The notes below the pieces were generated by a model that did not search any database, was not told where the DNA came from, and was given only the letters and a program-made list of their open reading frames with translations. A stretch of 64,000 nt of DNA, taken from NCBI GenBank assembly GCA_963965975.1, contig OZ014417.1:7498821-7562820 (forward strand), read 5' to 3'. Source of the stretch: Xestospongia bergquistia (lineage: Eukaryota > Porifera > Demospongiae > Haplosclerida > Petrosiidae). Made by a program: the position numbers and the translations under genes. Below are positions 995 through 44,245 of the stretch, one piece after another; positions within the stretch are counted from its first letter, which is position 1, and the number at the start of each line of letters is the position of its first letter.

Positions 995-1574
995 ATGGCC
1001 CAACACATAAGAGATGAATTCTTTCAGATTCCAATAGTTACTCGGGTCTTCACATCAGCTTGTGTACTAACTACTGTAGCTGTGGTAGGTGCTCATCTAT
1101 CTGCTCCATAATATGTGCTATGTATTATATGAAGGATGGTTAATATTATTTGATTGTTATACTCATTGTCTCTTCTTGTTTCCTTCACAGCAACTCAATA
1201 TTGTATCTCCATTACTGTTACTGTATCATCCTCAACTAGTTTTGAAAGGAGAGGTATAATTTATTATTTATTCATTGATTATTGCCATAGAAACATATTG
1301 TGATTATGTCTATTAAAAGAGCCAAGGGTCTTGTAAGTATAGATGCAGTTATTATGAACTGTGTTAATAATTAGAGTTTGAATTATTGTCATTGTATGCA
1401 TGTTTACTGATTATGACCAATCAGAATTGTCCATGTCAATGAATCATGTGATCAATTTAATAGCCAGGTGCATTAATAGCTATATCATTGTATTATTATA
1501 TTAATATTTTTCGTTTTTGTTGTATAATGACTAATAGACAGTTAAATATAACACTTTTTATCGTTATTTTGTCA

Positions 1575-1605
<31 letters not shown>

Positions 1606-3280: not shown

Positions 3281-3433
3281 ATGATAAGATATTCATAAAT
3301 TTAGTTCCATCTCATCAATTTTATAAGTGAATGTACTGTACTTTTCATACTAATATGGAGCAGGTGTGAAATACACTTAACAAAATATCACAAGTATTCA
3401 TTTCTTATACAATAATTGTAAAAGTACAACACA

Positions 3434-3900
3434 AATGTTAAAACTATTGCTATCTTTGTTTAAAAAGCAAAGTGTCCATTGATTGACAAATAGAAGATAA
3501 CTAACTGTTATAATGTTATTTTTCATAAATCTTTATCGGTCAGGAAATATGGCTATTCTAATCTGGAACAAATTTATAATGTTTTAGGTATTTTTAATGA
3601 GGAAGGTATAAAAGTTTCTATTTCTCGTCCCAAACTTTTAGAACCATTTTTACAACCACTTTTAAAGAGCCAGAATCTAGTTTAGCAGTTGCTTTTGAAA
3701 AATTAAATGGTTTTAAGCCTGAAGTTTTATGTGAATACTGTGACGTCCCTTCTATTCATGAACTAGTAAAGGAGATCCATTCACACAAGTCCTCTCTTCC
3801 TCGTTCATCTACAAAAGCAGCTACATCATCTTGCTCTGGGGGACCCTTTTCTTTATCAGCAACTTCAACTAATACACTGCAGTCTTTACACTATTGAGGG
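3434..3900 (+). pseudogene. Degenerate fragment of the LOTUS-like N-terminal repeat of the NO VEIN-like gene
   Basis: The sequence is clearly homologous to exon 1 of the gene at 10051. Its 5' half (from TTAAAACTATTGCTATC) follows LOTUS-like repeat 1 (10090-10250). Its 3' half, from the GAGGAAGGTATAAAAGT segment through the post-repeat linker, follows repeat 2 (10980-11240). It is broken by small indels (for example the extra bases in AAAAAGCAAAGTGTCC), an in-frame TAG soon after the conserved ATTGACAAA, and frame changes near 3660-3680. There is no start codon or promoter: the segment equivalent to about 9700-10085 is missing. It sits just downstream of intact Derlin, as the intact gene sits downstream of pseudo-Derlin, so both came from one duplicated block. 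Confidence 0.85.
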
Positions 3901-7526: not shown

Positions 7527-7535
7527 CTCCGCACT

Positions 7536-9560
7536 ATAGTTGTGGTAGGTGCTCGTCTATCTGCTGCATAACATGTGCTATGTATTATATGAAGGATGGT
7601 TAATATTATTTGATTGTTATACTCATTGTCTCGTCTTGTTTCCTTCACAGCAACTCAATATTGTATCTCCATTGCTGTTACTGTATCATCCTCAACTAGT
7701 TTTGGAAGGAGAGGTATAATTTATTATTTATTCATTGATTATTGCCATAGAAACATAATTATTGTGATTATGACTATTAAAAGAGCCGAGGGTCTTGTAA
7801 GTATAGATGCAGTTATTATGAACTGTGTTAATAATTAGAGTTTGAATTATTGTCATTGTATACATGTTTACTGATTATGACCAATCAGAATTGTCCATGT
7901 CAACGAATCATGTGATAGCCAGGTGCATTAGTATTTAATAACTATAATTATCATTGTATTATTGTTATTGTTGTTTCCTTTTTGTTGTATAATGACCAAC
8001 AGACAGTTAGAGACCCTTCTTTTGTGAATCTCTCTCTCTCTCTCTCAGATATGGAGACTGTTCACTTGTTTCTTATTTTTGGTTTTATAGAAATTGGTTT
8101 TTTTTTCTTTAACATGATTTTTCTGTATCCATTATAAAACACTTAACCATCTCTCTCTCTCTCTCTGTACATCCATTAATCATCTATGGCTGTCCATTCT
8201 TAACTCCTATATCATAGTTACCGATTTTGTCGTAAACTTGAAGAAGGATCATTTGCTGGTAAGACTGCTGACTTTCTTGTGATGATTCTTTTTGGAGCCA
8301 CATTGACACTGGTAATTAGCTAGTAATTATTAAAAATAAGATACTATTAATTAACTAGTAATTAACCTGACATATTGTTAATTAACTGGATCACTGATAT
8401 ATTCCCTTATTGTTACTTAATTAATAATTAACTAGTTGGAATATATTATTCATATTATTAATTAATTGGTAATTAACTGGATCATATGACATATTTCATT
8501 TTAAACTCAATTATTTATGATCTTTTGTAGATAGTAGCAACTTTCTTTGTCAATCTTCTTTTCCTGGGTGATGCCCTTACTACAATGATTGTCTATGTTT
8601 GGAGTCGACGTAATCCTTATGTACGATATACTTTTTTCGGACTCTTTAATTTTCAAGCTCCTTATCTTCCATGGATTTTAGTATTACTCTCTGTTTTGTT
8701 CAATGGTTCTATTATAGGAGATTTAGTAGGTAAGTTAACTTGTATAGTAGAATTGTTTCTTTGGGAGAACTACCATAAGTAATGTCTAACATCAGTACTT
8801 ACCATAGTGACCTTTTATTAGTAAGCTCCTGCCTGACTAGTACTGAGTTGGGATATTGTTAATGACTTTATGATGTAATGATTGCAATTACCATTACATC
8901 ATAATTACCTCAATACTATTACCATTACCATCACAATGAAACAATTATTATTACCCATTACTTACAAATATATCAATAGTAACAAAAACGTTGTAATTAA
9001 TTACATATTAATTACTCAATTACTGACAATAAAGCAATCTATAGTACTTATTAGAAAGGTGACTATCTCAATATTAGGAAGAAAATGCATGATCATCATC
9101 TAATTTCAGCTATTATTTTTCTAACTTCAAATGTTACTTGTAGCCCTTCACAATATTCAATGAGACTTGTCTTTCTCTAGGAATTGCTGTTGGTCACTTG
9201 TATTATTTCTTGATGGATGTTTTCCCTAACAAACCAGGTGGATTCTATATTATCAAGACACCACAATTCATGTAAGAATACTTACTTGTATCTTCATATA
9301 TGTAACTAACCTAAGTACTATTATTAGATTATATGCTGTATTTACAAAGTCAAGTTACAGAAATGAAACATATTAATTCAGTTTCTTAAAGTATTATTAT
9401 AATATATACTTTATTTTCTCGACGAAAGTGAAACTGATTTTTATTTCATTAGGAAATATTTATTTGACGGTCCTCAACATGATCCTAACTACGCTCCATT
9501 ACCAGAGGATAGACCAGGTGGATATGACTGGGCAGACCATTAGGACAACAACAACAATAA
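7536..9560 (+). pseudogene. Derlin pseudogene (partial tandem copy lacking exon 1)
   Basis: Homology to the Derlin gene starts abruptly at 7536, about 12 bp before the end of exon 1, and runs through introns and exons to past the stop. Exon equivalents are 7651-7713, 8049-8124, 8218-8311, 8531-8729, 9181-9271 and 9453-9560. It is disabled in several ways. There is no first exon or start. In exon 3 one T is lost in the TTATTTTTGG run and three are gained after ATTGG (76 nt instead of 74), giving a frameshift and a TAG. Exon 7 has a 7-nt loss that brings a TAG forward at 9541. Other exons and splice sites are intact, so the decay is fairly recent. Transcription from the upstream side cannot be excluded. 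Confidence 0.9.
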
Positions 9561-10050
9561 CAATAAATGATAAGATATTCATAAATTTAGTTCCATCTCA
9601 TCATTTTTATAAGTGAATGTAATGTACTTTTCATACTAATATTCTTAACAAGATAGTACAAGTATTCATTTCTTATACAATAGTTGTAAAAGTACTATAG
9701 TACAGTAATAACGTGTCATACTAATGCTCTTCTCAGGTAATAGTCATATGCCGTACCAGGTAGTTACCAGGCATTTGATCATGTGATGTAGTTGCTAGGT
9801 AGTGTAGTTATTTTAATGGTTATTATTTTGGGAGGTAACATTGTTAGTAGTCTTGTCAGCAAAAAGTCAGTCAATTCTCAGGATTATCGTTATTGGTTTT
9901 GTTACTTCTGATGAAGTGAACTGTAAGTTCATATTTTTAGTTTTTGATGAATTTTGAGGTTCCAAGAGTAGTTCTTAATATTCATTACTTAGTGACTCGT
10001 GAATAACTTCTCAAGACTCGACTCAATTTCTCTCTTGAGCTGAGCTGTGG
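9561..10050 (+). promoter_or_regulatory. Upstream region of the first NO VEIN-like gene
   Basis: About 490 bp separate the Derlin pseudogene from the ATG at 10051. The first 130 bp are homologous to the 3' flank of intact Derlin (3281-3430). The remainder is unique and should hold the promoter and 5' UTR. No defined element was recognised. Confidence 0.35.
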
Positions 10051-13000
10051 ATGGCGTCTCGAGAACCTAATACGAAAGAAAAGGAAATATTAGAACTATT
10101 GCTGCCTTTGTTTAAAAAGCGTCCATTGATTGACAAATACCAGATAACTAACTGTTATAATGCTGTTTTTCGTAAATCGTTATCTGTCAGGAAATATGGC
10201 TATTCTAGTCTTGAACGAATGTATAATATCTTAGGTATTTTCAACGAGGAAGGCACAAATGTTTCTATTTCTCGTCCCAAACTTTTAAAACTACTTCTAC
10301 AACCACTTCTTCAAGAGCCACGTTCAAATTTAGAAGTCGCCTTTGAGAAGCTAAATGGTTTTAAGTCTACAGTTTTATATGAATACTGTGATGTCTCTTC
10401 TCTTCATGAATTGATTGAGGAGATCCACTCACACAAGTCCACTGTATCATCTACAAAAATGGATACATCATCTTGTTCTGGGGTATCTGTGGGACCCTTT
10501 TCTTTATCAGCCACTTCAACTAATGCACCAAGGTCTTTCCAATCACAACAACAAGAAAAGAGACAATCTCAACCCCTCATAGGTCCTCAAATCCCATCTC
10601 CTAGACCAGAATCTACAATGAGAGTTCCCCTATTAGAATTCCCACCACTTCCAATGCCAAGTAAACCTCTTTCTGTGAGACAGGTGATATCAACTAACAG
10701 AGAGCCTTCTGCTGAAAGAAACCAACCTCCCGTAAAGAAACTTGTAAGCCCAATACCTGAATGTGTTCTGCCTAGCAATCCATCGACAAAAGGATCTCAA
10801 GAACCCAACATAAAACAGAGGATGATAATAAAATCATTGCTACCTCTGTTTAGGGTCCGTCCAGTCATTGATAGATCGACAATTACTAACACTTACGCTG
10901 CTGTCTTTGGTAAAGGGCTATCTGTTAGGAATCATGGCTATTCTAATCTGGAACAAATGTATAATGTTTTAGGTATTTTCAATGAGGAAGGTATAAAAGT
11001 TTCAATTTCTCGTTCCAAACTTTTAGAATTACTACTACAACCACTCCTTCAAGAGCCACGGTCTGGTTTAGCAGTTGCTTTTGAAAAATTAAATGGTTTT
11101 AAGCCTGAAGTTTTATGTGAATACTGTGACGTCCCTTCTATTCATGAACTAGTAAAGGAGATCCATTCACACAAGTCCTCTCTTCCTCATTCATCTACAA
11201 AAGCAGCTACATCATCTTCCTCTGGGGTATCTGGGGGACCCTTCTCTTTATCTGGGACTTCAACTAATGTACCATGGTCTTTTCAGTCACAACAAGAAGA
11301 GAGACAACTTCAACCCTTCATTGGCCTTCATATCCCCTTTCCTAGACCAGAACCTACAATGAGACATCCTTTATTAGAACCACCTTCTATGATGCCATTT
11401 CCAATGCAAAATATCAATAGACCATTGATGCCATATACTGAAGTACCTTCTGCTGTAAGAACTCTAATTTCTATAAAGAATCCTGTTACCCCAACACACA
11501 AACGTATCCTGCCCATTTATCCAGTTTCAAGTGATATCACAACAGAAGAATCTCAAGAGCTCAACATTATTCAAAGAACAATAATAAAATTGTTGCTACC
11601 TCTGTTTAAGGTCCATCCATCAATTAACAAAGACCAGATTACCAACACATTTGGTGCTGTCTTTCGTACTAATAGAGGATTATCTGTTAAAAAGCATGGC
11701 TATTCTAGTTTGGATCATATGTACAATGTATTAGATATTTTCAATGAAGAGGATAAGAACATTTCTATTTCTCGACCTAAACTTTTAAAGTTACTTTTAC
11801 AACCATTAGTTCCAATTCTTCATGAGCCACACTCAAGTTTAGATGCTTCCTTTGAGAAACTAAATGGTTTTAAGCCTACCGTTTTATGTGAATACTACAA
11901 TGTCTCTTCTCTACATGAACTGATGCAGGAGATCCATTCACAACATTACACCAACAGAAACCCATCTCCTTCACATCCCCAAACTCCTTTTCCTCATCAC
12001 CATATCTTGTCTCATCCAGTACCACATTTGGATTCAGCAACAAATATTACAGCAGCAGGAACTAGTCAAGCTCTACATACAGAGAAACCTCCAAGTCATT
12101 ACCCCAACCCACAAATCCATCCTCGAGATGACACCTTTGTCCCACCATTACCCAGCCATCGTCAGCCTCATGTACTCTCTGAAGAAGACATTTGCACACC
12201 TCCTTTTCCCCCACAATTTAAACGTTCTGAAAACTCCACAAGTGTCATAAACAAGATAGAAGAGTACATTAAAAGTTTTGTTAACTACCTTTCAAAACAA
12301 GGCAAGCATTTACCTGCCTATATGGTTGATAAGGAGGTCAAAAGTATCTGTAATAAAGCATCTTCGTTAGTGGGTAGACGGGTTGATTTCAAGAGTATTC
12401 AATTTGGTATTGAGTTTGATAAGCTTCAAAAACGTTTGAATGAATTTATACGAATGTTTTGCTGGAACTGTCCAATCACTTCACTTTTTGAACTCCAACG
12501 TACAATATGTGAATTTGAGAAGGTAGAAGATTTTGAAGAGCTCAAGGTTGGTCCTATTGTCAAACATCCTATAGTGATTAGCTTATTCAAAGTACCAGAA
12601 GATGTTCTGTCTGTACCCGAGATTACAGCTTACGATATTCACATATGTCTGATGAAGTATATCAGTAAAAGCAAGAAAACAAATACTAGAGATGTTGAAG
12701 AATTCATGACATTTTTGGCAGATAAATTCTCAGTATCTTCTCCACTTCATCTGTGTGTTCGTATATCTAGTTTTCCATTAGCTTGTTCAGTGAGTGATCT
12801 TTCTAACTTATTAATAAATACTGATCTCTTTCTTTCAGCTTAATTTTAAATTTCGTACATCACAAAGACAAATTCGTGAACGGATGGAGAAAGAAAGCGA
12901 GAAAAAGATTGGGGAAGAAGTTGACTTTGAAATTAAGCGTTTGGGAAAGTCTCTTAGTCATATGTCAGATAATATTAAGGAGTTAACAGCCAAAGATCCA

Positions 13001-16000
13001 GTCCAACTCATTGAAAGTGTCTTCACTCTATCACTCAGTTTGTTTCAGCCTCATCTTCGCTCAAAACTAACTGTTTTCTTTGACACTATTATGAAGAATG
13101 CTAGTCTACGTCAGTTATTTACTATTGCTCTCTATCAAGGAGTTTATGGTGTCCAGAAAATGATACAAGAACAAGAAACTCAAGCTGCAAGGAGTGGAAC
13201 TTCATCATTTACTGTGGGTCAACGTGGACAATACCATGAGATGATGATACATAAATCACAAAGTAAGTAAACATCATTACTGTGTATATAGATATAATAA
13301 TAGATTACTATTAGTAAAAGTTTATATAAACTTTAACCTTTTTAGAAGAATTAATTGGAGAACTAGTTCATATGCTGAGAACAGTACCATTTCCAATTGA
13401 TCTGGAAACTTTAGCTGAACTTGAAATACAACTGGTAAATATAATGGGAGGTCAAACATTCCATTCTTTTGGACATGGCCCTTTTCTCAAGTTCATTTCT
13501 TGTAAGCCTACAGTGTTAGAGGCACTTGGAGGTAAGACTATTGGTAGCAGTGGGGGAGAACAGAGTAAGGAACTGGAACAGAAACGAACAGAAGTGATAT
13601 CATGTATACAACAACTCAAAGAGTCTTCTAATAAGGTATGTATAAACATAAGTTACTCTAATGTAGTGTTTTTATTTACTATTAGAATGTTGTGTCAGCT
13701 ACTCTCCTACAACAATTCCAGGTAGACTCTATCAGCCAACTAGGTTGTGGTACACTAGAAAAACTCATATCAGATGCTCAAAACATTGCTCTACCTCCTT
13801 CTTCCTCTATATATTACATCACTCCATTACTAATAAACAGTAATGATCATGTCAACTCACCTCATCATGGTGTATTGGGTCCACAAACTCATCAAGATGC
13901 TCTGGACTGTTTACTAGCTGCACCACTTTTAGCTGACTTAGCAGAATGGTCTAACTGGGACTTAGTTTTTAGACCCTCTCTTGGACGTCTCTCTGTCTTT
14001 TTAAACAATCAACTACAGACCACCAGTAGATCTGAAGATGAGAAAGTTTTTGCACTTGATATTGGACCTGGTAGACTTTTAAAAATCAATGCTAACTCAA
14101 CTATACAAGATTTCACAGCTGCTGTTGATCATACCGAACCTGTAACAGCAGCTGGACATTTAGTATCATTGGCTGTTAAAGCTAGTAACATTTCTAATGT
14201 ATCTACACAATTATTAGCTCAACATGTTCATACTAAACTATCTAGAATGTCAACTGCTATGGATTGTGAGGGAGAGATGTCACCTGATAGATTTGTGTTT
14301 AATTGTCTAGTGTCTATGCCATTACAACTTTGTGTGATTTTAGGCAAACAGGTAATTTACCAGCCTACCTGTTCCATTGTATACCTAATAAGGAAATTCC
14401 TCTAGTGCTGTACTCCTTTGTAGATAATAAAATTTATTTTTTGTTATTATATTACAAGGAAGCCTATAGTTCATGATATAACTTGTGGTATTTCTAATAA
14501 CTATAATTATTCATAATTTAATTTCTTACATTTAGGTGTTTTTAGATCCTCTAAGAAATGTGACTAGTTCTACTTTAATTGATGGATTGATAACTTTATG
14601 TAGAACAAATAGTGAAAGAGGATTTTTTCAAGCACTTGGAATGAAGCTAGGTATTAAAGCATGGATTGATGACTTTAAAGAAATGCAGACAACAAGGTTT
14701 ACTGGTAGTGGTATCATAGTTACTAAAAAGTCTACTATGAAATCTACTATTAAGAAGGTTAGTTAAGAAAATGTTTTGAATTCATTTTACTGTGTTCTGT
14801 CTTCATAGATGGAACAGACTACTTACTTGAAACCTGACATCATACCATCTCTCCCAAATAATACCCCACCACTTAAAGAAGAGACAATAGATGAGGTAGC
14901 AACCAGTGATGACATTACACCTTCTCCTGAGATGATGACAGTAAAGGAAGTGACTAAAGTTGAAGAGAAATGTAAGAAGATAATTCTTGATATTTGTCAA
15001 AATGAATTTGGAGTCGGCCTTGAGTTGCAACTTAATCCTCAACAAAAACAAATTGCAGAAAAACAGAAAGAGAGAGAGGGTCGGAGTCTACAACGTCTTT
15101 CAGAAGAGCTTTATAGCAAGGATACTCATTTTGTGTTGGAACTAGTTCAAAATGCTGATGATAACATGTACTCTAGTAATCAACTGGTTCCTACACTTAA
15201 GTTTGTTCTCTCAAAAGACTGTATCACAGTCCTCAACAATGAAACAGGTTTCTTAGAGAATAATATTCGAGCTATTTGTGATGTTGGCAAGAGTACTAAA
15301 GACAAAAATCGTTCAGGATACATTGGACAAAAGGGTATAGGTTTCAAATCAGTTTTTCGAGTCACAGAACACCCTGAGATTCATTCTCGAGGTTTTCATA
15401 TCAAATTTGATACTCAATCTGGTCCAATTGGATACATCTTACCACAGTGGGTGGAGCACTCATTTCGTGAAGGAAAATTATCTGAAGAAGAACTAGCAAA
15501 GTAAGTTATCTGTCTATAATTATATACTTAAATAACATGCACAATAATATTATGTACCATAATATAATATGTACTGAAGTGTACTATATATCAATGTTTT
15601 ATTATATATTGTTCAGTTAATATCTTTAATATCTTCTATTTTATTTAGATGGACTACTAGGATAGTGCTACCTTTAAAATCAGATATTACTGTCTCTCAA
15701 AATACTCAAAATATGATGAGTAAATTTCAAGACATTCAACCATCTTTATTGCTCTTTTTAAATCGTCTGAGATGTATTATCATTGAAGACACAGTTAGTG
15801 AATTATTTAATGTATAGCTATAAATTTTGATTATTTTTCTTTTAAGGAGACACAAAATGTTCGTCTGATGGAACGACATGACAAATCAGCTGGTATAACT
15901 GAAATTAGATATGACATGGGAACTGATTATTGGTTGGTAGTGAGAAAAGTATTAAAAGATGCTAGTCAGGTATGAAGACAAAGAAAATGAAAGAATAGAT

Positions 16001-19000
16001 TCAATGATACCACCTTTGTATTCTCTAGTATAAACCTGATGTAGAAGCCACAGAACTTGCTCTTGCATTTCCTTTACCTAAAGATTTAAAGAACCCACCT
16101 ACAGCCAGAGTGAGTTAAAACTATTATATTTAATAGTTTATGATCAATACATAGTTATCAATGTGACCATAGTAATTTATATAGTGTTAATGTTGTTCTA
16201 TTTTGTAGGAGCTTCAATCACAACAAGTGTTTGCTTTCCTTCCCTTGAGGAGTTATGGTTTTCATTTTATAGTTCAGGGAGATTTTGATCTACCTAGCTC
16301 AAGAGAAGATGTTAACAGTAACAGTGCCTGGAACCAGTGGCTTAGAGAAGAGATACCAGCTTTGTTTTTAAAAGCAATAGAAAATTTTAAAGTAAGCTAT
16401 TATGTCCAATAATACCATATCACTCTAACATGAATGTGTTTTTATTATTCATAGGCTCTGCCAGATGTCTCAGAAATAGAAGCAATGTCCTTGATCTTAC
16501 AGTTTATTCCACTAGAAGGAGAAGTGCATGATTTCTTCCAACCAGTTACTGGAGAGATCGTACGTCTCTTTAAAGGAAAGGAATGCTTACCTACTGACCC
16601 AACACCATCTCATGAAGCATCACCAAAAAATACAATGAGAGATATTGTAGATATCTTTAGACAGACTAGTACAAGAGATGACACAGATATTCAGTGGAAA
16701 CAACCTTCACAATTACTCTCAGTTCATTTGGATATCATCAGAGAATACATCCCTCAATCTTTGTTGACTTCAGCATTAGATTTATACTATCTCAATGGCA
16801 GTTTATCTAGTACACTTAGCAATGATCTATGTTCTCAATTAAATATTGGAGTAATAAATATAGATCATTTACTAGCAGTTGCTGAATATGCTCTTAAAGA
16901 ATACAAGAGTAAGAGAGGAAGTGCATTACAAGATCTATCCTTAGAGGAACCTTTAATAGAAGATGATGATGAAGAATTTGATGAACTTAGTCCTTCAAAA
17001 TATTTTGTGAAGTGGATAGCTCATTGGTTAGCATGTGTACATTCTCTAATGGAGGATACTAGAGATTTTACTACAAGTACTTTAAGTAAACTCAAGAGGT
17101 TACCAATTATTCTTCTCTCTAATGGTGACATGGTGTCAATTGAGAGTGGACCCATCTTCTTTCCTCCTGATTCTGATACAGGTATGAAATGGATAACCCT
17201 GTAATTGTATTATAGTAATTGATATCTTAATCTTCTTCCCTTCCTCTCAGATCTTGAGCAATCTTTTCAAATTATTTACAAAGAACTACATACTATTGAT
17301 AATGAGTTATTAAACAGTGGAGATGAAATGGTTTCAGCTCGTGTCTACAAAATCCTCTCTATTCAACTAGGAGTAAAAGAACTTAACATTGTAGATATTA
17401 TCTATCATCATATTATTCCACAGTTTAAAAAAGACAGTATCAAGGTAATTAAGACAATTATTCTATTAACATATAATAGTTTAATAGATTAATGTGCTTA
17501 TTTTTATATTTCTCTTTCAGAGCAAGAAAGATCAACTCCTTATTTCCTATCTGGCTTTTATTAAACACTCAATTGATAAGGGTATGATTCCTCAACCTCA
17601 ACTAATTGCTGATTTGAAAGATGATGTGGTTCTCATTACAAACAAAGGAAGAAAGAAACCAAGTAAAGAAGTCATCCATTTTAATGCACAGTACAAGAAC
17701 CAGTGGAATCTTTCCAGAATGTTTCCAAGTAAGACTATTCTAATACAAAAAGATAATATTGTAGATAACATTAATATGTGTCTTACTAAATATATTGTAT
17801 ATAGGTGTTAAATGGATTGAAGTTTCTCCAGAGTACCTTAAGATATCAAAACAATTAAAAATTCTTCCCACTAATTGGAAGGAATTCTTCCTTGGGTTGG
17901 GTGTCCAGTCTGGACTAGCTGTGGAAAGAATTAACAGAGAAATCAACCCAACTAAAGAGGTAAGACAAGAGTCACTAAAAAGGTTGGTATTAATATTTGT
18001 TATCTATTATAGGCCAGTCACCATATATGGAATGTACAAAGCTGGAAGAGATCACCAGATGGTAGCTACATAGTACGAGACTACTACTGCAAAGAGTTTA
18101 ATGATATACTAGTCTCTATTAGTAAAAATAGTCCAGGAGATCAGATAGAGCAAATGAAAGCTTTAGCTGAAATGTTAGATCAGTGCTGGGATAGTGTATA
18201 TAAATCATACATGATGGCTACATATTATGATGGTAGCAATTCTCATGAGCTAGGTAATGTTGTGTCTTCATTTGGACACAGTTTAACAAACAAAGCTTGG
18301 TTACCGAGTGTAGACCTTGCTAAAAAACCATATAGCAATGATGGTTCATCTCCTCTTCTTCAGGGAAATCAACTTTATCAAGATGTAGACAAGCTAAAGC
18401 ATTTATTACATTGTCATGTACCATATTTAAGAGCTAATTTGAGAAGCTACGACTTTATACAACATTTACAAGTCAAAGTTGATGTCACTTCTAAAGAGCT
18501 TTTAGAATATCTTTGTAACTGGTCAGAAAAGGCATCAATTAGAACAACAACAGAACACATGAAACATGTTTATATGTTTTTAGCTCAGGCTTATGAAGAG
18601 AAGAATGAAATTGGGAGAGCATTCAGCAACAGGGACTTGATATTTGTTCCATCCATCACTGAATGGAGGAATAATTCTTTAATTGATATTGATGGTACTT
18701 TTGTCTCTGTCCACAAAACATGTTGGGCTGATGAGACAACTGTCTTGTTCAAGTTTCTCAAAAATCATCAGTCATACCCTTTTCATCTTCCTCAAATTTT
18801 GGGTTTCTTTTACAGTGGTTTTGATGAGAATACTAAAGAGAAAATTAAATATGCCTTCAGTTTGCTGGGGGTACGAAAAGATATGAATTTGGAGAACCTC
18901 ATTAGTTTGTTTGAGTTTAATGCCTCTCTCACATCTTCTCCTGAAGATAGTCACATTGATGCATTTCGTTCAATTGCTGAAGTAATTCTAAAAATTATCA

Positions 19001-20871
19001 CAAGTGATGAAGGTATTTCTGAAGTTGAACAAAAGTTTTTTTTAGCTAATGTCAGAAAGAAGGCTATATTTCCAAGTAAAAGTAAAAAATGGGTGTCACT
19101 TGAGAGCCTGTATATTGATGATGACCCCGATATATCGAAACACTTTTCAAAACATGAGAAGGTCCATTTTCTTCATTGGCCTGCTAACAAAAGTGTTAAA
19201 GGCTGGTTAAAAGATGAATTACCAAACCCATTCACTGAGATATGTCTAATACCTCGAATTAGTGAATGTGTGCATACACAGTTAAATCCATCATCAGTAC
19301 GACCTTATTATGACCTTCAGAAGACATTTCATTACATGATTCCTTTAATACAACAATATATTGTCTCTAATGTTGAGCACCCCTCTTCTTTAAACTATTA
19401 CGAAGGAATAGCTGAGCTATTAAAACGCTTGCAGTTTCTTTCAACTATTGAACTCACCTGTACATACTCCATTGATGAACATTTTGCTCATGCTTCTATA
19501 AAGCAATGTCGATTTGATGATGATTCTTCTCAGCCAGTGGTATACGTTGTTGTAAATGAAGATGGTAAAATACTGGAGAAAAGCTCTCTACCACAAGTAG
19601 TCTGTCAGATTATTCTACCTAAGAATGTCAAAATCCTGTCATTTCAACAGTTTGTCCAAGAAATGTTAATGGATGATGTTAGTTCAGAAGAGGATACAAA
19701 AAGATATATTGAGAAGTATGGACTAAAACCAGTTCCAGCTAACTTACCACAGTGGAGTATTGGATTACCATATCTGCCTAAACCTGTACCTACAGAAGAG
19801 CCTGCAGAGTTGGAACCTCTAGATGAACAGACAGATCTGGAGATACTAACTAGCAATAAAGAAAATACCCTGGGTAATACTGAGGGTGGATTAAAGGCAT
19901 GGCCACCCAGAGCACCTGTAAGAATGGAAGAAGGCCATGGTGCAAAGAAATCCACTAGAATTTCCAATAAAGATGGTGAGCGAGAAAGAAAGTTAACAGA
20001 GAGAGATGTTATCACTGTGGAGGATGTACGACGGATGCAACAAGCGGCTGGACAAAAAGAAGAACCTGATGATGATGCTAAAGCCAAAAAAGACAATACC
20101 ACCATAAGGCAACCTAGTTCTAATCAAAGTGATGTCATTCACAAAAATCCTGCTGCTAAGAAGTCTGAAAGTCAGACTCCTAGTCATGCTTTAGTATCAC
20201 AGCAACTTACTCCACCTCAAACTGGTACTACTAAACCTCAACAAATGTTAAAGCAGTCTACATCATCGACCTCCAAAGAAGAAACAACTACTGCAAAAGA
20301 GTCAACAGAGGTAGTACCTAGAAACAAGGCAAACTCAAGTGAGGTTTCTAAATTAAAAAAGCCAAATCCTTATTTTGCTGATGTTAAGTCTATTGATATT
20401 ACTTCATTAATGAAGAGCCTACCAATACAAGTTGACAGAAACTTGTTTACACAATTAGTTCCAAATGAAGATAGAAAAGAAGAAAAACTTGAAGTTGGTA
20501 AATGGGGAGAAGAATTTGTTTTTAATGTTCTCAAACATCATAGAAAATTGCCTAATGGAGTTGAGATTAAAAGTATAATATGGTTGAATGAACATATAGA
20601 GTCTGGTCTACCATATGACATTAAAGTTATCAGTACTCATGATGAAATGGAGTACTATATTGAAGTTAAAAGTACTATATCTGTTGACAGAGCTTTGATT
20701 CCTATCTCATGGAAAGAGCTTCAGTTTGCACAGCAAGTTAAAGAGGCACATCTTTTACTGTGTGTATATGGTGTGAGAAGGAAAGTTGAGGAGGTCGAGA
20801 TAAAGTGGTTGTCAGATGTATTTAGCCTTATTGAAAATAATCCATCAGTAACCCTCTACATAAAAATGTAG
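10051..20871 (+). CDS. NO VEIN-like giant protein A: three LOTUS-like repeats, GHKL ATPase, DUF3883 PD-(D/E)xK-like domain
   Basis: Fifteen exons: 10051-12789, 12839-13262, 13346-13635, 13686-14351, 14536-14757, 14809-15500, 15649-15793, 15847-15969, 16029-16109, 16209-16391, 16455-17181, 17251-17444, 17521-17728, 17805-17959, 18013-20871. All phases join, giving about 3235 aa. Residues 9-130, 254-375 and 504-632 are three copies of a helical domain (Y..VF....LSV..YGYSSL) resembling OST-HTH/LOTUS, separated by Pro/Ser-rich linkers. A related helical domain lies at about 729-830. The ATPase has ELVQNADDN (1558-1566) and GQKGIGFKSVF (about 1620-1630), then LPLRSYGF and DLPSSREDVN, as in NO VEIN and sacsin. 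The last 125 residues match the NO VEIN C-terminal domain, with D3152 and E3167-V-K3169 in a PD-(D/E)xK-like arrangement. A basic, Ser/Thr/Gln-rich linker precedes it. Function in animals is unknown to me; a nucleic-acid-directed ATPase is inference. LOTUS identity needs a profile search. Confidence 0.85.
10075..11945 (+). repeat. Coding tandem repeat: three LOTUS-like modules in exon 1
   Basis: Modules begin near 10075, 10810 and 11560, a period of about 740 bp covering domain plus linker. Shared landmarks are LLLPLF, YGYSSL, ILGIFNEEG, SISRPKLL, LLLQPL, FEKLNGFK and LHEL. The sister gene has one module and the fragment at 3434 has a recombinant one, so copy number changes here, probably by unequal crossing-over. 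Confidence 0.85.
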
Positions 20872-21753
20872 TTGTATAATAGTGTTGTATAAAGTTTTAG
20901 ATTTTGCACTGATAGGTCTAAATTTTGCTTTCGTATTAGTTTTTTCTTTTGTATTTGTAACAATTACTTTTATTTACTTTCTGTATAGTTTCTAAAATAG
21001 AGAATTTTATAATATATGTATGTCACAGGAGAGAACTAGCCACACAAACTAAGCTATTTGCTTGTGACCTTCATAATTATAATTAGAACTGTAATTTTGA
21101 ATTGCCACTTGACACACAGCTGACTTCTCAAGGTGAAAAATGCTATTCGTTAAATCCTCCAAAATGCAAAATTTGAAGTATGTCGAAGGTATGCCATTGA
21201 AAATGTATGGAGTTTTATAATTTGCTACTTTCTCGTATCACTAGACAGCCAAAATTTATGTATAAAATGCGCGTTTGCAAGCTGAATTGATTGGTACAAG
21301 TCCCGTCTGGATAGCGCTTAAAACGGCAAAGTTATTTACATGTCAGGGTAGCTCTTCTCAACTTGGACAGAGTACCGTATAAGTGGTATACCTATTTCGC
21401 GGTTATAAACTTTCGCGATTTTACCCGAAATTCATATTCGCGAACAAAAAAATTTCGCGAGTTAAGATAGATCACACCCAAGGAATATAAATTTTCGCGG
21501 ATTTTTAATTTCGCGAAATTAAATCCCCGCGAAATATACCACCTATACGGTATATAATACTGCACTCTGATAGGCTGGTTTGTTTGTTTAATAATAATTA
21601 TTAAGGTTATTATAATGGGAGGTGACGTGGGTAATTATAAATTATTAACAGTATGATTAGTCAGCAGAGCTAGAAAGTCAAGCTTCAGATTATATATATT
21701 CCAACATCGCTGACCCAGTTTTTTTAAATCACTAATTGTCTCGACACGCAACG
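20872..21753. other. Intergenic region between the two NO VEIN-like genes
   Basis: It contains the 3' end of gene A, a MITE (21375-21550) and the promoter side of gene B. A TTATNATGGGAGGTNAC motif just before gene B (around 21610) resembles the TTATTTTGGGAGGTAAC sequence upstream of gene A (around 9824), so part of the promoter seems to have been duplicated with the gene. Confidence 0.45.
21375..21550. mobile_element. MITE with TA target duplication and TTTCGCG motifs
   Basis: The ends are inverted copies: CCGTATAAGTGGTATACC on the left, and CCGTATAGGTGGTATATTTC as the reverse complement of the right. TA dinucleotides flank both sides (21373-21374, 21551-21552), as for Tc1/mariner-type elements. 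The inside has several TTTCGCG/CGCGAAA copies and no coding capacity. Confidence 0.8.
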
Positions 21754-24700
21754 ATGGCGTCTCAACACGCTCCACCAGAACCTAGTACAGCAAAGAGGAA
21801 AATACTTGAATTACTGCTGCCTCTGTTTAAACAGTATCCACGGATTGACAAATACCAGATCAGCTACGCTTACAATGCTGCTTTTCCGCATGATAAGTTA
21901 TCTGTTAAGAAGAAATTTGGCTATAAGAATCTTGACCATATGTACACCGTGTTAGATGTCTTCAATAATGAAGGCACAAAAGTGTCTATTAGTCGACCCA
22001 AACTTTTAGCCCTACTTCTACAACCACTTCTTCAAGAGCCGCAATCAAATTTAGAAGCTTCCTTTCAGAAGTTAAATGGTTTTAAGTTTTCGATTTTATG
22101 TGAGTACTGTGATGTCTCTTCTCCTCATGACTTGTTAAAGGAGGTTCAATCACAAACATCCAACCATCCTTCTTCATCTGTAAAAGTAGCAAAATCTATG
22201 TCTTCTAATACATTGATGGAATCCTTTCCATTTGATACAACGCCACATATTAGATCACAGCAATCCCAAAAAAGAAAGCCTCATTTATTTCCTCCTACAC
22301 CACAATTCTATTGTTCAGCTCCAATAACAGATAATACAGCAGTAAGAACCAGTCAACCTCAAATTGCACCTGGGGTACAAGTGTTTATACCGCCTCCTCC
22401 AGCATTCATGTCACACGCAGAGCAACTTCCAAGTCATTACCCCGACCCACAAATCCATCCTCGAGATGAAATCTTTATCCCTCCATTACCTGGCTATCAT
22501 CAACCTCATGTACTCTCTGAAAAGGATATTCGCAGACCTCCTGTTCGTCCACAGTTTAAACGTTCTGAAGACCCCCAAAATGTCTTAGACAAGATAGAAA
22601 TGTATATACAGACTTTTGCAAGCTATTTCTCAAAACAAGGCAAGCATTTACCTGCTTACGTGGTTAATCAAGAAGTGAAAAGCATCTGCAGTAATGCTTC
22701 AAAACAAGTGGGTAGACATGTTGATTTTAAGAGTATTAAATTTAGCAATGACTTTGACAAGCTTCAAAAACGTTTGAATGAATTTATGTGCTCATTTTGC
22801 TGGAACTGTCCAATCACTTCACTTTTTGAACTCCAACGTACAATATGTGAACTTGAGAAGGTAGCAGACTTTAAAGAATTCAAGATTGGTCCTATTGTCA
22901 AACACCCTGAGGTGATCCGTTTATTCAAAGTACCGGAAGATGTTCTGACTGTACCTGAAATTACAGCATATGATATTCATACCTGTCTGACAGAGTATAT
23001 CACCAAAAACAAAACTAACAATGTTGAACAATTCATGACTTACATGGCTGAGAAGTTCTCAGTATCTTCTCCACTTCATCTGTGTGTTCGTATATCTAGT
23101 TTTCCATTAGCTTGTTCAGTAAGTGCATATAATTATTAATAATTATTAATTGTTTGCTGCATTTCTTCCTTTCAGATTAATCACTGGTTTCTCACATCAC
23201 AAAACCAAATTCATAAACGAATGGAAAAAGAATGTGAGAAAAAAATTGGAGAAGATATTGACTTTGAAATTAAGCAGTTGAGACGATCTCTGAGTCGTAT
23301 GTCAGATAATATTAAAGAGTTAACAACTAAAGATCCACTTCAACTCATTGAAAGGGTTTTTAATTCATCGCTTCGTTTGTTTCAGCCCTACTATCACTCC
23401 AATTTAACCCTTTTCTTTGACACTATTATGAAGAATGCTAGTCTACGTCAGTTATTTACTATTGCTCTCTATCAAGGAGCTTATGGTGTCCAGAAAATGA
23501 TACAAGAACAAGAAACTCAAGCTGCAAAGAGTGGAACTTCATTATTTACTGTGGGTCAACGTGGACAACATCATGAGATGATGGTATATAAATCACAAAG
23601 TAGGTAGACATCATTATTGTGTGCATAGATATAATAATAGATTACTACCAGTAAAAGTTTATATAAACTTTCACCTTTTTAGGAGAATTAATCAGAGAAC
23701 TAGTTCATATGCTGAGAACAGTACCATTTCCAATTGATCTGGAAACTTTAGCTGAACTTGAAATACAACTGGTAAATACAATGGGAGGTCAAACATTCCA
23801 TTCTTTTGGACATGGCCCTTTTCTCAAGTTCATTTCTTGTAAGCCTACAGTGTTAGAGGCACTTGGAGGTAAGACTATTGGTAGCAGTGGGGGTGAACAG
23901 AGTAAGGAACTGGAACAGAAACGAACAGAAGTGATATCGTGTATAAAACAACTCAAAGAGTCTTCTAATAAGGTATGTATAAACATTGATTAAGTTACTC
24001 TAATGTAGTGCTTTTATTTACTTTTAGAAAGTTGTGTCAGCTACTCTCCTACAACAATTCCAGGTAGACTCTGTCAGCCAACTAGGTTGTGGTACACTAG
24101 AAAAACTCATATCAGATGCTCAAAACATTAATCTACCTCCTTCTTCCTCTATAAATTACATCACTCCATTACTAGTGAACAGTAATGATCATGTCAGCTC
24201 ACTTCATCATGGTGTATTGGGCCCACAAACTCGTCAAGATGCTCTGGATTGTTTACTGGCTGCACCACTTTTAACTGACTTAGCAGAATGGTCTAACTGG
24301 GACTTAGTTTTTAGACCCTCTCTTGGATGTCTCTCTGTCTTTTTAAACAATCAACTACAGACCACCAGTAGATCTGAAGAAGAGAAAGTGTTTGCACTTG
24401 AGATTGGACCTGGAAGACTTTTAAAAATCGATGTTAATTCAACCATACAAGATTTCACAGCTGCTGTTGATCATACCGAACCTGTAACAGCTGCTGGACA
24501 TTTAGTGTCATTGGCTGTTAAAGCTAGTAACATTTCTAATGTATCTACACAATTATTAGCTCAACATGTTCATACTAAACTATCTAGAATGTCAACTGCT
24601 ATGGATTGTGAGGGAGAGATGTCACCTGATAGATTTGTGTTTATATGTCTGGTATCTATGCCATTACAACTTTGTGTGACTTTAGGCAAACAGGTAATTT

Positions 24701-27700
24701 ACCAGCAATATCTATGTGTTCTTTTGTATACCTAATAAGGAAATTCCTCTAGTGCTGTACTCCTTTGTAGATAATAAAATTTATTTTTTAGCTATTATAT
24801 TACAAGGAAGCCTATAGTTCATGATATAACTTGTGGTATTTCAAATAACTATAATTATTCATAATTTAATTTCTTACATTTAGGTGTTTTTAGATCCTCT
24901 AAGAAATGTGACTAGTTCTACTTTAATTGATGGATTGATAACTTTATGTAGAACAAATAGTGAAAGAGCATTTTTTCAAGCACTTGGAATGAAGCTAGGT
25001 ATTAAAGCATGGATTGATGACTTTAAAGAAATGCAGACAACAAGGTTTACTGGTAGTGGTATCATAGTTACTAAAAAATCTACTATGAAATCTACTATTA
25101 AGAAGGTTAGTTAAGAAAATGTTTTGAATTCATTTTACTGTGTACTGTCTTCATAGATGGAACAGACTACTTACTTGAAACCTGACATCATACCATCTCT
25201 CTCAAATACTACCCCACCACTTAAAGAAGAGACAATAGATGAGGTAGCAACCACTGATGACATTACACCTTCTCCTGAGATGATGACAGTAAAGGAAGTG
25301 ACTAAAGTTGAAGAGAAATGTAAGAAGATAATTCTTGATATTCGTCAAAATGAATTTGGAGTCGGCCTTGAGTTGCAACTTAATCCTCAACAAAAACAAA
25401 TTGCAGAAAAACAGAAAGAGAGAGAAGGTCGGAGTCTACAACGTCTTTCAGAAGAGCTTTATAGCAAGGATACTCATTTTGTGTTGGAACTAGTTCAAAA
25501 TGCTGATGATAACATGTACTCTAGTAATCAACTGGTTCCTACACTTAAGTTTGTTCTCTCAAAAGACTGCATTACAGTCCTCAACAATGAAACAGGTTTC
25601 TTAGAGAATAATATTCGAGCTATTTGTGATGTCGGTATTAGTACTAAGGACAGAAGTCGTTTAGGATACATTGGACAAAAGGGTATTGGTTTCAAATCAG
25701 TTTTTCGAGTCACAGAACAGCCTGAGATTCATTCTCGAGGTTTTCATATCAAATTTGATACTCAATCTGGTCCAATTGGATACATCTTACCACATTGGGT
25801 GGAGCACTCATGTAGTGAAGGAAAATTATCTGAAGAAGAACTAGCAAAGTAAGTTATCTGTCTATAATTATATACTTAAATAACATGCACAATAATATAT
25901 GTACCATAATATAATATGTACTGAAGTGTAGAGCATGTACTATAATTATATCAATGTTTTATTATATATTGTTCAGTTAATATCTTCTATTTTATTTAGA
26001 TGGACTACTAGGATAGTGCTACCTTTAAAATCAGATATTACTGTCTCTCAAAATATGATGAGTAAATTTCAAGACATTCAACCATCTTTATTGCTCTTTT
26101 TAAATCGTCTGAGATGTATTATCATCGAAGACACAGTTAGTGAATTATTTAATGTACAGCTGTAAATTTTGAATGTTTTTCTTTTTAAGGAGACGCAAAA
26201 TGTTCGTCTGATGAAACGACATGATAAATCAGCTGGTATAACTGAAATTAGACATGACAGGGAAACTGATCATTGGTTGGTTGTGAGAAAAGTATTAAAA
26301 GATGCTAGTCAGGTATCAAGACATAAAGAAAATGAAAGAATAGATTCAATGATACCATCTTTGTATTCTCTAGTATAAACCTGATGTAGAAGCCACAGAA
26401 CTTGCTCTTGCATTTCCTTTACCTAAAGATTTAAAGAACCCACCTACAGCCAGAGTGAGTTAAAACTATTATATTTAATAGTTTATGATCAATACATAGT
26501 TATCAATGCAACCATAGTAATTTATATAGTGTTAATGTTGTTCTATTTTGTAGGAGCTTCAATCACAACAAGTGTTTGCTTTCCTTCCCTTGAGGAGTTA
26601 TGGTTTTCATTTTATAATTCAGGGAGATTTTGACTTGCCTAGTTCAAGAGAAGATGTTAACAGTAACAGTGCCTGGAACCAGTGGCTTAGAGAAGAGATA
26701 CCAGCTTTGTTTTTAAAAGCAATAGAAAATTTTAAAGTAAGCTATTATGTCCAATAATGCCATATCACTCTAACATGAATGTGTTTTTATTATTCACAGG
26801 CTCTCCCAGATCTCTCAGAAATAGAGGCAATGTCCTTACTCTTACAGTTTATTCCACTAGAAGGAGAAGTGCATGATTTCTTCCAACCAGTTACTGGAGA
26901 GATAATACGTCTCTTTAAAGGAAAGGAATGCTTACCTACTGACCCAACACCATCTCATGAAGCATCACCAAAAAATACAATGAGAGATATTGTAGATATC
27001 TTTAGACAGACTAGTACAAGAGATGACACAGATATTCAGTGGAAACAACCTTCACAATTACTCTCAGTTCACTTGGATATCATCAGAGAATACATCCCTC
27101 AATCTTTGTTGACCTCAGCATTAAATTTATACTATCTCAATGGCAGTTTATCTAGTACAATTAGCAATGATCTATGTTCTCAATTAAATATTGGAGTAAT
27201 AAGTATAGATCATTTACTAGCAGTTGCTGAATATGCTCTTAAAGAATACAAGAGTAAGGGAGGAAGAACATTACAAGATCTATCTTTAGAGGAATCTAAA
27301 TATTTTGTGAAGTGGATAGCTCATTGGTTAGCATGTGTACATTCTCTAATGGAGGATACTAGAGATTTTACTACAAATACTTTAAGTAAACTCAAGAGGT
27401 TACCAATTATTCCTCTCTCTAATGGTGACATGGTGTCAATTGAGAGTGGACCCATCTTCTTTCCTCCTGAATCTGATACAGGTATGAAACAGATAACCCT
27501 GTAATTGTATTATAGTAATTGATATCTTAATCTTCTCTTCCTCTCAGATCTTGAGCAATCTTTTCAAATTATTTACAAAGAATTACATACTATTGATAAA
27601 GAGTTATTAAACAGTGGAGATGAAATGGTTTCAGCTCGTGTCTACAAAATCCTCTCTATTCAATTGGGAGTAAAAGAACTTAACATTGTAGATATTATCT

Positions 27701-30700
27701 ATCATCATATTATTCCACAGTTTAAAAAAGACAGTATCAAGGTAATTAAGACAATTATTCTATTAACATATAATAGTTTAATGGATGAATGTGCTTATTT
27801 TTATATTTCTCTTTCAGAGCAAGAAAGATCAACTCCTTATTTCCTATCTGGCTTTTATTAAACACTCAATTGATAAGGGTATGATTACTCAACCTCAACT
27901 AATTGCTGATTTGAAAGATGATGTGGTCCTCATTACAAACAAAGGAAGAAAGAAACCAAGTAAAGAAGTCATCCATTTTGATGCTCAGTACAAGAACCAG
28001 TGGAATCTTTCCAGAATGTTTCCAAGTAAGACTATTTTATTACAAAAAGATAATATTGTAGATAATATTAATATGTGTCTTACTAAATATATTGTATATA
28101 GGTGTTAAATGGATTGAAGTTTCTCCAGAGTACCTTAAGATGTCAAAACAATTAAAAATTCTTCCCACTAATTGGAAGGAATTCTTCCTTGGGTTGGGTG
28201 TCCAGTCTGGACTAGCTGTGGAAAGAATTAACAGAGAAATCAACCCAACTAAAGAGGTAAGACAAGAGTCACTAAAATAGGTTGGTATTAAATAGTTGTT
28301 ATCTATTATAGGCCAGTTACCATATATGGGATGTACAAAGCTGGAAGAGATCACCAGATGGTAGCTACATAGTACGAGACTATTACTGCAAAGAGTTTAA
28401 TGATATACTGGCTTCCATTAGTAAAAATAGTCCAGGAGATCAGATAGAGCAAATGAGAGATTTAGCTGAAATGTTAGATCAGTGCTGGGATAGTGTATAT
28501 AAATCATACATGATGGCTACATATTATGATGGTAGCAATTCTCATGAGCTAGGTAATGTTGTGTCTTCATTTGGACACAGTTTAACAAACAAAGCTTGGT
28601 TACCGAGTGTAGACCTTGCTAAAAAACCATACAGCAATGATGGTTCATCTCCTCTTCTTCAGGGAAATCAACTTTATCAAGCTGTAGACAAGCTAAAGCA
28701 TTTATTACATTGTCATGTACCATATTTAGGAGCTAATTTGAGGAGCTACGGCTTTATACAACATTTACAAGTGAGAATTCAAATCACTTCCATGGAGCTT
28801 TTAGATTATCTTCATAACTGGTCCAAAATAATACAATTTAGAACAACAATAGAACACATGAAACATGTTTATATGTTTTTAGCTCGAGCTTATGAAGAGA
28901 AATATGAAATCGAAAGAGCATTTAGCGACAGGGACTTGATTTTTGTTCCATCCATCACTGAATGGAGGAATAAATCCTCACTTATGATTGATGGTGCTTT
29001 TGTCTCTGTCCACAAAACATGTTGGGCTGATAAGACAACTGTCTTGTACAAGTGTGTCCTTGATCATCAGTCTTATCCTTCTCATCTTCCTCAAATATTG
29101 AGCTTCTTTTATGGAGGTTTTGATGATAAAACCAATGATCAAATTAAAAATGCCTTCACTCAACTAGGAGTACGAAAAGATATGAATTTAGAAAACCTCA
29201 TTAGTGTGTTTGAGTTTAACGCTTCTCTTGCACCTTCTCCCGAAGATAGTCACATTGATGCATTTCGTTCTATTGCTGAAGTTATTCTAAAAGTTATCAC
29301 AAACGATGAAAGTAGCCCTGAACTTAAGAAACAATTTTTTTTAGCTAAAATAAAGGAGGTGGCTATATTTCCAGGGAAAGGTAAAAAATGGGTACCACTT
29401 GATGGCCTATTCATTGATGATGATCCTGAGATATCAAAATATTTTTTGAAGCATGAGAAGGTTCATTTTCTTCGTTGGCCATCAAAAAGAAATGTCAAAG
29501 GCTGGTTGAATGATGAATTACCAAACAAATTCACTGAGATATGTCTAATACCTCGAATTAGTGAACATGTGCGTATACAATTAAATCCATCATCAATACG
29601 ACCTTATTTAGATATTAAGCAGACATTTCACTACATGATATGTTTAACACAGAAGTACATTTTGTCTAGAGTTAAAGACCTCTCTTCTTTCAACTATCAC
29701 CAAGAAATAGCTGAGCTATTAAAAAGCTTGCAGTTTCAATCCACTATTGAACTCACCTGTACATACTCCATTGATGAAAAGTATTTTGCTCATGCTTCTA
29801 TAAAGCAATGTCGATTTGATGATGATCCTTCTCAACCAGTGGTATACGTTGTTGTAAATAAAGACAGTAAAATACTGGAGAAAAGCTCACTGTCACAAGT
29901 TATCTCTCAGATTGTTCTACCTAACAATATTGAAACTCAAACTTTGATGCAATTTCAACATTTTGTTGAAATGATGTTAATGGATGATGTAAGTTCAGAA
30001 GAGGATGCAGAAAGATTTGTTGAGAGGTATGGACTAAAACCAGTTCCAACTGACTTACCGCAGTGGAGTATTGCATTACCAGATATGCCTAAACCACCAC
30101 AAGAAACAGTGGAATTGGAACCTCTAGTAGAGGAGACAGATCTACAGGTACCTATTGTGAATAAAGGAGTCCCTGTCAATAGTGAGGCTGGCTTAAGAGC
30201 ATGGCCACCTAAAGCACCTGTAAGAATGGATGGAGGTGCAAAGAACTCCACTAGATCTAGAGCTGAACGTGTTGCCTCAAATAAAGATGTTGGACAAGAG
30301 AGAAAGTTAACAGAGAGAGATGTCATCACTGTGGATGAAGTACAACGGATGCAACAAGAGGCTGGACAGGAAATTGATTTAAACATTGAATGCAAACCAG
30401 CAACTAAAAAACAACAACCTAGTCTAAATCAATATGATGCCTTTAATGAAAAACCAGGCACTATTAGTAAGTCACAAAATCAAACCCGCAGTCACTCTTT
30501 AGTATCACAGCAAATTCAACCTTCTCAATTCCAAACCACTGCTTCAAGCCATCAAAAATCTAAACAATCCTCATCATCAACTCTTTCCTTACAACAGACC
30601 CTCCAAGAAGAAAAAGTTACTTCAACAAAATCGACAAAAGTATTAGCTAGTACTAAGGCAGAGAATAAAACAAAACCTTCCAATCAGGTTACTAAATCAA

Positions 30701-31200
30701 ATAAGCAACATACTCATTTCATCGAACTTCAATCCATTGATATTACTTCATTAATGAAGAGCCTACCAATACGAGTTGACAGACAGTTGGAGTTTGTTCT
30801 AAAAAAAGACGGAAAAGAAGAAGTTGGTAAATGGGGAGAAGCATTCATTTATAATGTTCTCAGACATCATAGAAAATTGCCTAATGGAGTTGAGATTAAA
30901 AGTATAATATGGTTGAATGAAGATAAAGAGTCTGGTCTACCATATGACATTAAAGTTATCAGTGCTCATGATGAAATAGAGTACTATATTGAAGTTAAAA
31001 GTACTATATCTGTTGACAGAGCTTTAATTCCTATCTCATGGAAAGAGCTTCAGTTTGCACAGCAAGTTAAAGAGACATATCTATTATTACGTGTCTATGG
31101 TGTAGGTGGTAAAGTCCAAGAGATTGAGATAAAATGGCTGTCAGATGTTTTTAATCACATTGAAAGTAATCCGTCAATAACTCTCTATTTGAAACTGTAG
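21754..31200 (+). CDS. NO VEIN-like giant protein B: one LOTUS-like repeat, GHKL ATPase, DUF3883 PD-(D/E)xK-like domain
   Basis: Fifteen exons: 21754-23118, 23176-23599, 23683-23972, 24028-24693, 24884-25105, 25157-25848, 26000-26135, 26190-26312, 26374-26454, 26554-26736, 26800-27481, 27548-27741, 27818-28025, 28102-28256, 28312-31200. They give about 2769 aa with the same intron positions and phases as gene A. The start ATG at 21754 (MASQHAPPEP) aligns with gene A (MASREPN). Only one LOTUS-like module is present, then a Pro-rich linker and the related helical domain. ATPase motifs: ELVQNADDN (1100-1108) and GQKGIGFKSVF. The nuclease-like domain is complete, with D2686, E2701 and K2703. Compared with A, exon 11 lacks an acidic stretch (PLIEDDDEEFDELSP) and exon 7 lacks three residues. 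An AATAAA lies 12 bp after the stop. Exons and introns 3-14 are almost identical to gene A; the ends are diverged. Both copies look functional. Confidence 0.85.

Positions 31201-32484: not shown

Positions 32485-44245
<11,761 letters not shown>

Follow-up and report, generated by a model that had tools for sequence, protein, structure and literature searches.

Organization of the locus

The window, by which we mean the whole 64-kb stretch of DNA that was analysed, corresponds to 7,498,821-7,562,820 of contig C7 in a 146-Mb genome assembled in 21 contigs. It contains two long genes on the forward strand, here called gene A and gene B, and the coordinates of these genes, their domains and their relatives are collected in Table 1. 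Open frames of 934, 952, 467 and 962 aa, measured between stops, lie at the places where an earlier note on this DNA had claimed them. Splice models for the two genes have 14 introns each, with lengths of 35-190 bp and at matching places in A and B, and all 28 have GT-AG ends; the gene B exon boundaries are those of gene A transferred by alignment. The models yield proteins of 3,241 and 2,775 aa, in agreement with the single polypeptides of about 3235 and 2769 aa proposed earlier, and the motifs ELVQNADDN, GQKGIGFKSVF and YD...IEVK are found in both genes as the note had reported.

Table 1. Positions of genes, domains and related copies (window coordinates unless another reference is named)
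Feature	Position	Strand	Remarks
Gene A	10051..20871	+	15 exons, 3,241 aa; splice model, without internal stop
Module A1	10075..10434	+	LOTUS-like winged-helix part and helical tail (predicted)
Module A2	10813..11172	+	
Module A3	11569..11943	+	
Gene A, region between modules and ATPase (approximately aa 735-1505)	12253..14982	+	Introns included
Gene A exon 6, GHKL (sacsin/NO VEIN-type) ATPase	14809..15500	+	SACS match 15112-15411
Gene A NOV_C/DUF3883 tail, PD-(D/E)xK-like	20509..20787	+	Motif YD...IEVK
Gene B	21754..31200	+	15 exons, 2,775 aa; ATG at 21754; splice model
Module B1	21790..22155	+	
Gene B exon 6, GHKL ATPase	25157..25848	+	SACS match 25460-25759
Gene B NOV_C/DUF3883 tail	30838..31116	+	Motif YD...IEVK
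Broken single-module copy	3433..3890	+	5' flank 1073-3427 is a diverged copy of the gene A 5' flank 7533-9695
Paralogue C	Contig 7,491,354-7,494,386 (L004 6534-9566)	-	One exon, 1,011 aa from ATG
Terriglobia TmtA-like ATPases L149, L150	G001 contig 114, 6831-7232 and 13809-14159		

The earlier description of a tandem pair holds for genes A and B, but it understated the number of family members, as there is a third, ATPase-less paralogue and there are further copies of the N-terminal module; the observation is confirmed and exceeds a pair. Paralogue C starts 14.5 kb upstream of gene A, on the opposite strand and outside the window, and consists of three modules joined straight to a NOV_C domain (49.7 bits, E 4e-13), with neither the middle region nor the ATPase. 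Its ExK motif reads IKVK, lysine replacing the catalytic glutamate. The NOV_C part is near-identical to that of gene B (dS 0.03, dN 0.03, a ratio of 1.29 on few changes), and the modules are separated from those of A and B by dS of 0.86-1.53. Paralogue C may act as a regulator or adaptor. A genome-wide search with the module gave at least 15 matches, a lower bound in which pieces of single copies are included; all are clustered on contig C7 and several are broken. Ahead of the broken copy listed in Table 1 lies a duplicate of some 2.3 kb from the region upstream of gene A, 82-91% identical to it (1073-3890 and 7533-11942), and a further decayed relative is present at about 7,620,700-7,622,500 of the contig.

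The presence of broken copies nearby raises the question of whether A and B could themselves be artefacts, that is, neighbouring genes merged in the models, decayed copies, or prokaryotic contamination. We consider this extremely unlikely in view of the 28 GT-AG introns, the constraint seen along the frame, and a genome of 146 Mb that has Wnt genes (three loci), the Wnt loci also bearing out the animal origin that the earlier note had assumed. Moreover, paralogue C unites modules and NOV_C in one exon. Together with the splice models, this answers, short of transcripts, the concern that the N- and C-terminal parts belong to separate genes, and both parts most probably form a single gene, as originally read.

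The ATPase and NOV_C domains

In both proteins a GHKL ATPase and, behind it, a C-terminal domain of PD-(D/E)xK type (DUF3883/NOV_C) are separated by a long connecting region, an arrangement that we refer to as the body; ahead of it lies a large extension of one to three modules and a further region. The assignment of the two enzymatic parts of the body, which had been made from motifs, is firmly supported by matches to Pfam, NF047352 and PADLOC profiles. Exon 6 of gene A matches SACS with 47.6 bits (2.4e-12, cut-off 32.8) and NF047352 with 74.8 bits (5.6e-21, cut-off 50), and gene B, in which the ATPase exon is 96% identical to its gene A counterpart over the aligned segment, matches SACS with 38.2 bits. 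Among PDB sequences the ATPase finds mitochondrial HSP75 chains, with a best E of 0.0056. The tails match NOV_C (PF13020; cut-off 22.1) with 49.8 bits in A (E 3.6e-13) and 57.5 bits in B (1.4e-15), and the D ... ExK residues predicted to be catalytic in the PD-(D/E)xK signature are kept in both. DUF3883 is termed a novel REase domain in PMC3710099. A phmmer search of PDB with the last exon of gene A gave three matches, all with E of 0.75 or worse. No Pfam family scored above its cut-off in exons 1-4 of gene A within the region between modules and ATPase, and neither DnaJ nor HEPN was found in the exons scanned with Pfam (1-4, 6, 11, 13 and 15).

Two groups of known proteins resemble this body. 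NO VEIN of plants, with its animal homologues, shares both the sacsin/NO VEIN-type GHKL domain and the NOV_C tail. Sacsin shares the SACS-type GHKL domain but differs in having repeated SACS units, whereas A and B each have one SACS match and a NOV_C C-terminus. Across the genome we found 107 SACS-domain matches, and all except the two in A and B are on contigs C5 and C13 (L030-L049), where giant sacsin-like genes with open frames of up to 4,490 aa are clustered. Many sacsin-like proteins are described in the sponge Amphimedon (PMC3710099). The abundance of such genes here, together with numerous Death-domain matches, the genome size and the Wnt loci, points to a sponge, probably a demosponge.

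Relationship to TmtA

The strongest match of the ATPase exon of gene A is to the PADLOC profile TmtA (PDLC03972), which we take to be the Tiamat system; its E value of 3.4e-49 is far better than that for SACS or NF047352, although PADLOC output carries no curated cut-off. The last exon of gene A also matches TmtA (1.9e-32), with residues 43-943 aligned to positions 738-1291 of the 1302 in the profile, so that the ATPase and the C-terminal region follow each other in gene A in the order of the profile. The last exon of gene B matches in two stretches (7.1e-25). TmtA has the same plan as the body of A and B, with the GHKL ATPase first, a long middle, and a C-terminal domain. PMC12629846 deals with Tiamat as one of the anti-phage systems in genomic-island hotspots, and PMC12926258 describes its mechanism as unknown.

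A search across 84,980 prokaryotic species, each represented by one genome, identified 316 loci related to the ATPase. The set of 99 relatives with which we compared gene A comprises the best 80 of these, 12 loci from viral contigs and seven of 16 plasmid loci; it includes one plasmid gene twice (L050 and L065) and a few further loci that are near-identical. At 94 of the 99 loci an upstream in-frame stop limits the open frame ahead of the ATPase match to at most 117 residues, and the frames of the other five extend to the upstream edge of the contig. BLAST of gene A against the 99 relatives aligned only residues 1506-1908, 2262-2502 and 3097-3228, in this order; the three stretches fall in different relatives, and none of the 14 listed has all three. 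Residues 1-1505 are unmatched in the set, with nothing better than E 1.7 for residues 1-1530. The TmtA relatives therefore begin at the ATPase, and in comparison with these 99 the 1,505-residue N-terminal extension is a feature of gene A. We conclude that the body of A and B (residues ~1506-3241 of A) is, judged by these profile and sequence matches, an animal member of the known NO VEIN/TmtA-like lineage. The arrangement suggests that animals kept a bacterial-style ATPase and nuclease machine and added new recognition heads to it.

Different tails follow the same ATPase in the relatives. A DUF3883/NOV_C-like tail is present in 28 of the 99 and an HNH-like motif, identified by regular expression, in 12, some of the loci being cut; within the tails the D of the nuclease motif is retained in 27/27 (with one gap), the E in 26/28 and the K in 27/28. 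Such an exchange of nucleases in the C-terminal slot would be expected of an effector position. One plasmid relative directly precedes an annotated qatABCD anti-phage operon. The closest ATPase relative among those kept is a protein from a Terriglobia MAG, with 47% identity to gene A over the ATPase, 55% over a shorter stretch and 32% over 412 columns; it begins at the ATPase and, by eye, has an HNH-like region at its C-terminus. A second TmtA-like ATPase gene lies some 7 kb away on the same MAG contig (Table 1).

The N-terminal modules

Gene A carries three copies of a YGY-type module in exon 1 and gene B carries one; this is the module that had been noticed in the sequence by its Y..VF....LSV..YGYSSL pattern. 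Each module is about 120 aa and comprises a helix, the stretch ..F..LSV..YGYSSL..MYN.L.IFNEE....ISR, and a conserved tail ending in LNGFK..LCEYCDVSSLHEL..EIHS; the modules sit on linkers rich in Pro, Ser and Thr. Among the seven intact modules, which come from A, B and paralogue C, pairwise identity is 49-72%, and in all 21 pairs dN/dS is 0.22-0.57 (dS 0.41-1.53), which argues that the modules are selected protein domains. A relationship of the helical tail of the module to the middle region was considered and rejected, as its score of 18.9 hardly exceeds the best of 30 shuffles (18.5).

The modules had been proposed to be LOTUS (OST-HTH) domains. OST-HTH is the best Pfam family for exon 1 of gene A, with 25.2 bits (cut-off 23.8) and a best stretch of 22 residues. 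When single modules are searched, OST-HTH matches two of four, with at best 16 bits, below the cut-off, and one module favours the unrelated Glyco_transf_52 (E 0.0046, itself below the cut-off of that family). No OST-HTH match was found in gene B at E up to 10 or in paralogue C at E up to 1, so that of the Pfam families named in the earlier note NOV_C is above cut-off in both A and B, and OST-HTH in gene A alone. A profile built from four modules found no PDB sequence at E up to 10. With hhalign, the module scores 24.8 against a LOTUS profile, compared with a maximum of 13.1 in 30 column shuffles and 20.2 for a reversed-profile control. This LOTUS profile was made from 15 of the 18 OST-HTH domains found, eight in the genome of the sponge itself and ten in 20 prokaryotic genomes, L027, L029 and L161 having been dropped as short or weak.

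We also compared predicted structures. A template-free model of module A1 (pLDDT 60) has a helical segment past the wing, with four predicted helices, and a conserved segment C-terminal to the wing is present in all seven intact modules. In a Foldseek search of 350,542 chains with this model, the first three ranks are LOTUS entries of TDRD7, at E-values of 0.86 or higher, and LOTUS entries make up 18 of the 50 rows listed, from 81 matches overall. A second model, of exon 1 of gene B (455 aa, pLDDT 49), gave no LOTUS row among 12 Foldseek matches and 50 VIA rows, and its search rows include a few weak winged-helix or TetR-like matches.

These results are consistent with the modules being winged helices, and it is plausible that they are most like LOTUS/OST-HTH, as the Pfam match in A and the TDRD7 rows suggest, while the low scores of single modules, the lack of an OST-HTH match in B and C, the empty PDB profile search and the low pLDDT leave the support weak. 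The modules resemble LOTUS/OST-HTH proteins (TDRD5/7, Oskar, MARF1) in their predicted winged-helix-like form, a YG(F/Y) centre and tandem copies, and differ in the weak match, the conserved helical tail and the fusion to a GHKL ATPase and nuclease. We found no report of LOTUS/OST-HTH fused to NO VEIN/DUF3883 in the open-licence literature, where the DUF3883 passages of a paper that also mentions OST-HTH describe no such fusion, and by term search neither 'ATPase' nor 'HSP90' occurs in the main text of an OST-HTH survey (PMC2848206).

With LOTUS support marginal, the modules could instead represent another winged helix, either cullin/ANAPC2-like or DNA-binding, in which case the protein would act on chromatin or DNA. 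ANAPC2, a winged-helix family, is the second Pfam family for exon 1 of gene A (21.7 bits, cut-off 23). Since OST-HTH ranks first in the same search and LOTUS accounts for so many of the Foldseek rows listed, we regard this alternative as quite improbable.

Divergence of genes A and B

Comparison of A with B indicates constraint along the frame. The dN/dS ratio is 0-0.5 in all 13 exons where it is defined, of 15 in total; exon 9 shows no difference between the genes, the only change in exon 14 is a nonsynonymous one, and the linker stretch at aa 640-735 has a ratio of 0.9. Synonymous divergence is unevenly distributed, with dS of 0.61 in exon 1, 0.36 in exon 2, 0.33 in exon 15, and 0-0.13 in exons 3-14. 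Identity between the introns is 63% for intron 1 and 89-98% for introns 3-14. A near-identical core that includes both exons and introns extends over 13263-18012 and its gene B counterpart, with both ends diverged. The low dS and near-identical introns of the core, as compared with the diverged ends, point to recent conversion of the core, and the patchwork is most simply read as an old duplication in which gene conversion has recently made the ATPase core uniform. A recent exchange of both ends would instead be expected to produce a similar pattern.

Proposed function

Our preferred interpretation, to which we give about even credence, is that A and B are NO VEIN/TmtA-like ATPase-nucleases with LOTUS-like N-terminal modules, gated by ATP and acting in defence or silencing. 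The modules would guide the protein to RNA or, in the manner of eLOTUS domains, to an RNA-helicase partner such as Vasa; engagement of a target would lead to ATP-dependent clamping by the GHKL domain; and clamping would free the nuclease to act on invading or selfish nucleic acid, or on transcripts thereof. A role in defence or silencing had already been suggested for this DNA, and the TmtA match improves the basis for it, although such a role is still proposed by analogy. Whether LOTUS domains bind RNA is in dispute: binding to G-quadruplex RNA is reported, as cited in PMC12247748, and one group detected no RNA binding of the Oskar eLOTUS (PMC5458760). Tying an animal family to bacterial TmtA provides the hypothesis of an ATP-gated nuclease directed at foreign or selfish nucleic acid, and LOTUS-like heads would tie the same family to RNA recognition or to Vasa.

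A different possibility is that the proteins are animal NO VEINs with a housekeeping or developmental role, in which a chaperone-like GHKL scaffold is combined with modules serving as protein-protein adaptors. According to PMC12289216, NO VEIN of Arabidopsis is a nuclear factor in cell-fate decisions, so a NO VEIN body does not necessarily indicate defence, and an acanthocephalan NO VEIN homologue is reported to be female-biased and size-correlated in PMC12690905, a text according to which no metazoan NO VEIN homologue has been characterised. The purifying selection on A and B, and modules that show no sign of positive selection, are also in keeping with such a role. On the other hand, A and B keep the nuclease residues, the numbers of gene copies and of modules vary, and anti-phage TmtA models are the profiles that the body matches best; on balance we find a developmental role somewhat unlikely.

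Silencing in the germline deserves separate consideration. Here, modules similar to extended LOTUS domains would recruit Vasa, and the nuclease-ATPase would cut transposon RNA in germ granules. The Oskar eLOTUS binds and stimulates Vasa through a C-terminal helix that eLOTUS domains need (PMC5458760), and the conserved segment that follows the wing in the seven intact modules, helical in the A1 model, could be a counterpart; the female bias of the acanthocephalan homologue (PMC12690905) would also fit. The module tail, however, is predicted to form four helices and not one, and we think this germline role unlikely. The plant and acanthocephalan reports keep both the developmental and the germline explanations alive.

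Returning to the defence or silencing interpretation, we can extend it, at a level of confidence at which it is rather doubtful, to the history of the family. A bacterial immune ATPase-nuclease of the Tiamat type may have become a modular, nucleic-acid-sensing animal family. On this view the genes differ in how many LOTUS-derived heads they carry and in the sequences of these heads, the ATPase core is held uniform by gene conversion, and the ATPase-less paralogue with its altered catalytic residue serves as a regulator or decoy. The ATPase-less, one-module and three-module genes constitute natural variants for dissecting the parts.

Other features of the window

A scan of the 64-kb window with Rfam gave zero matches at gathering scores, and the four stretches searched against PHROGs gave none at E up to 0.01. 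An open frame of 394 aa on the reverse strand (49751-50935) appears by eye to encode a multi-SH3-domain protein. Long minisatellite arrays are present at 33600-33975 (23-bp units), 38109-38820 (40-bp), 41292-41866 (102-bp units) and 56585-57170 (60-bp).
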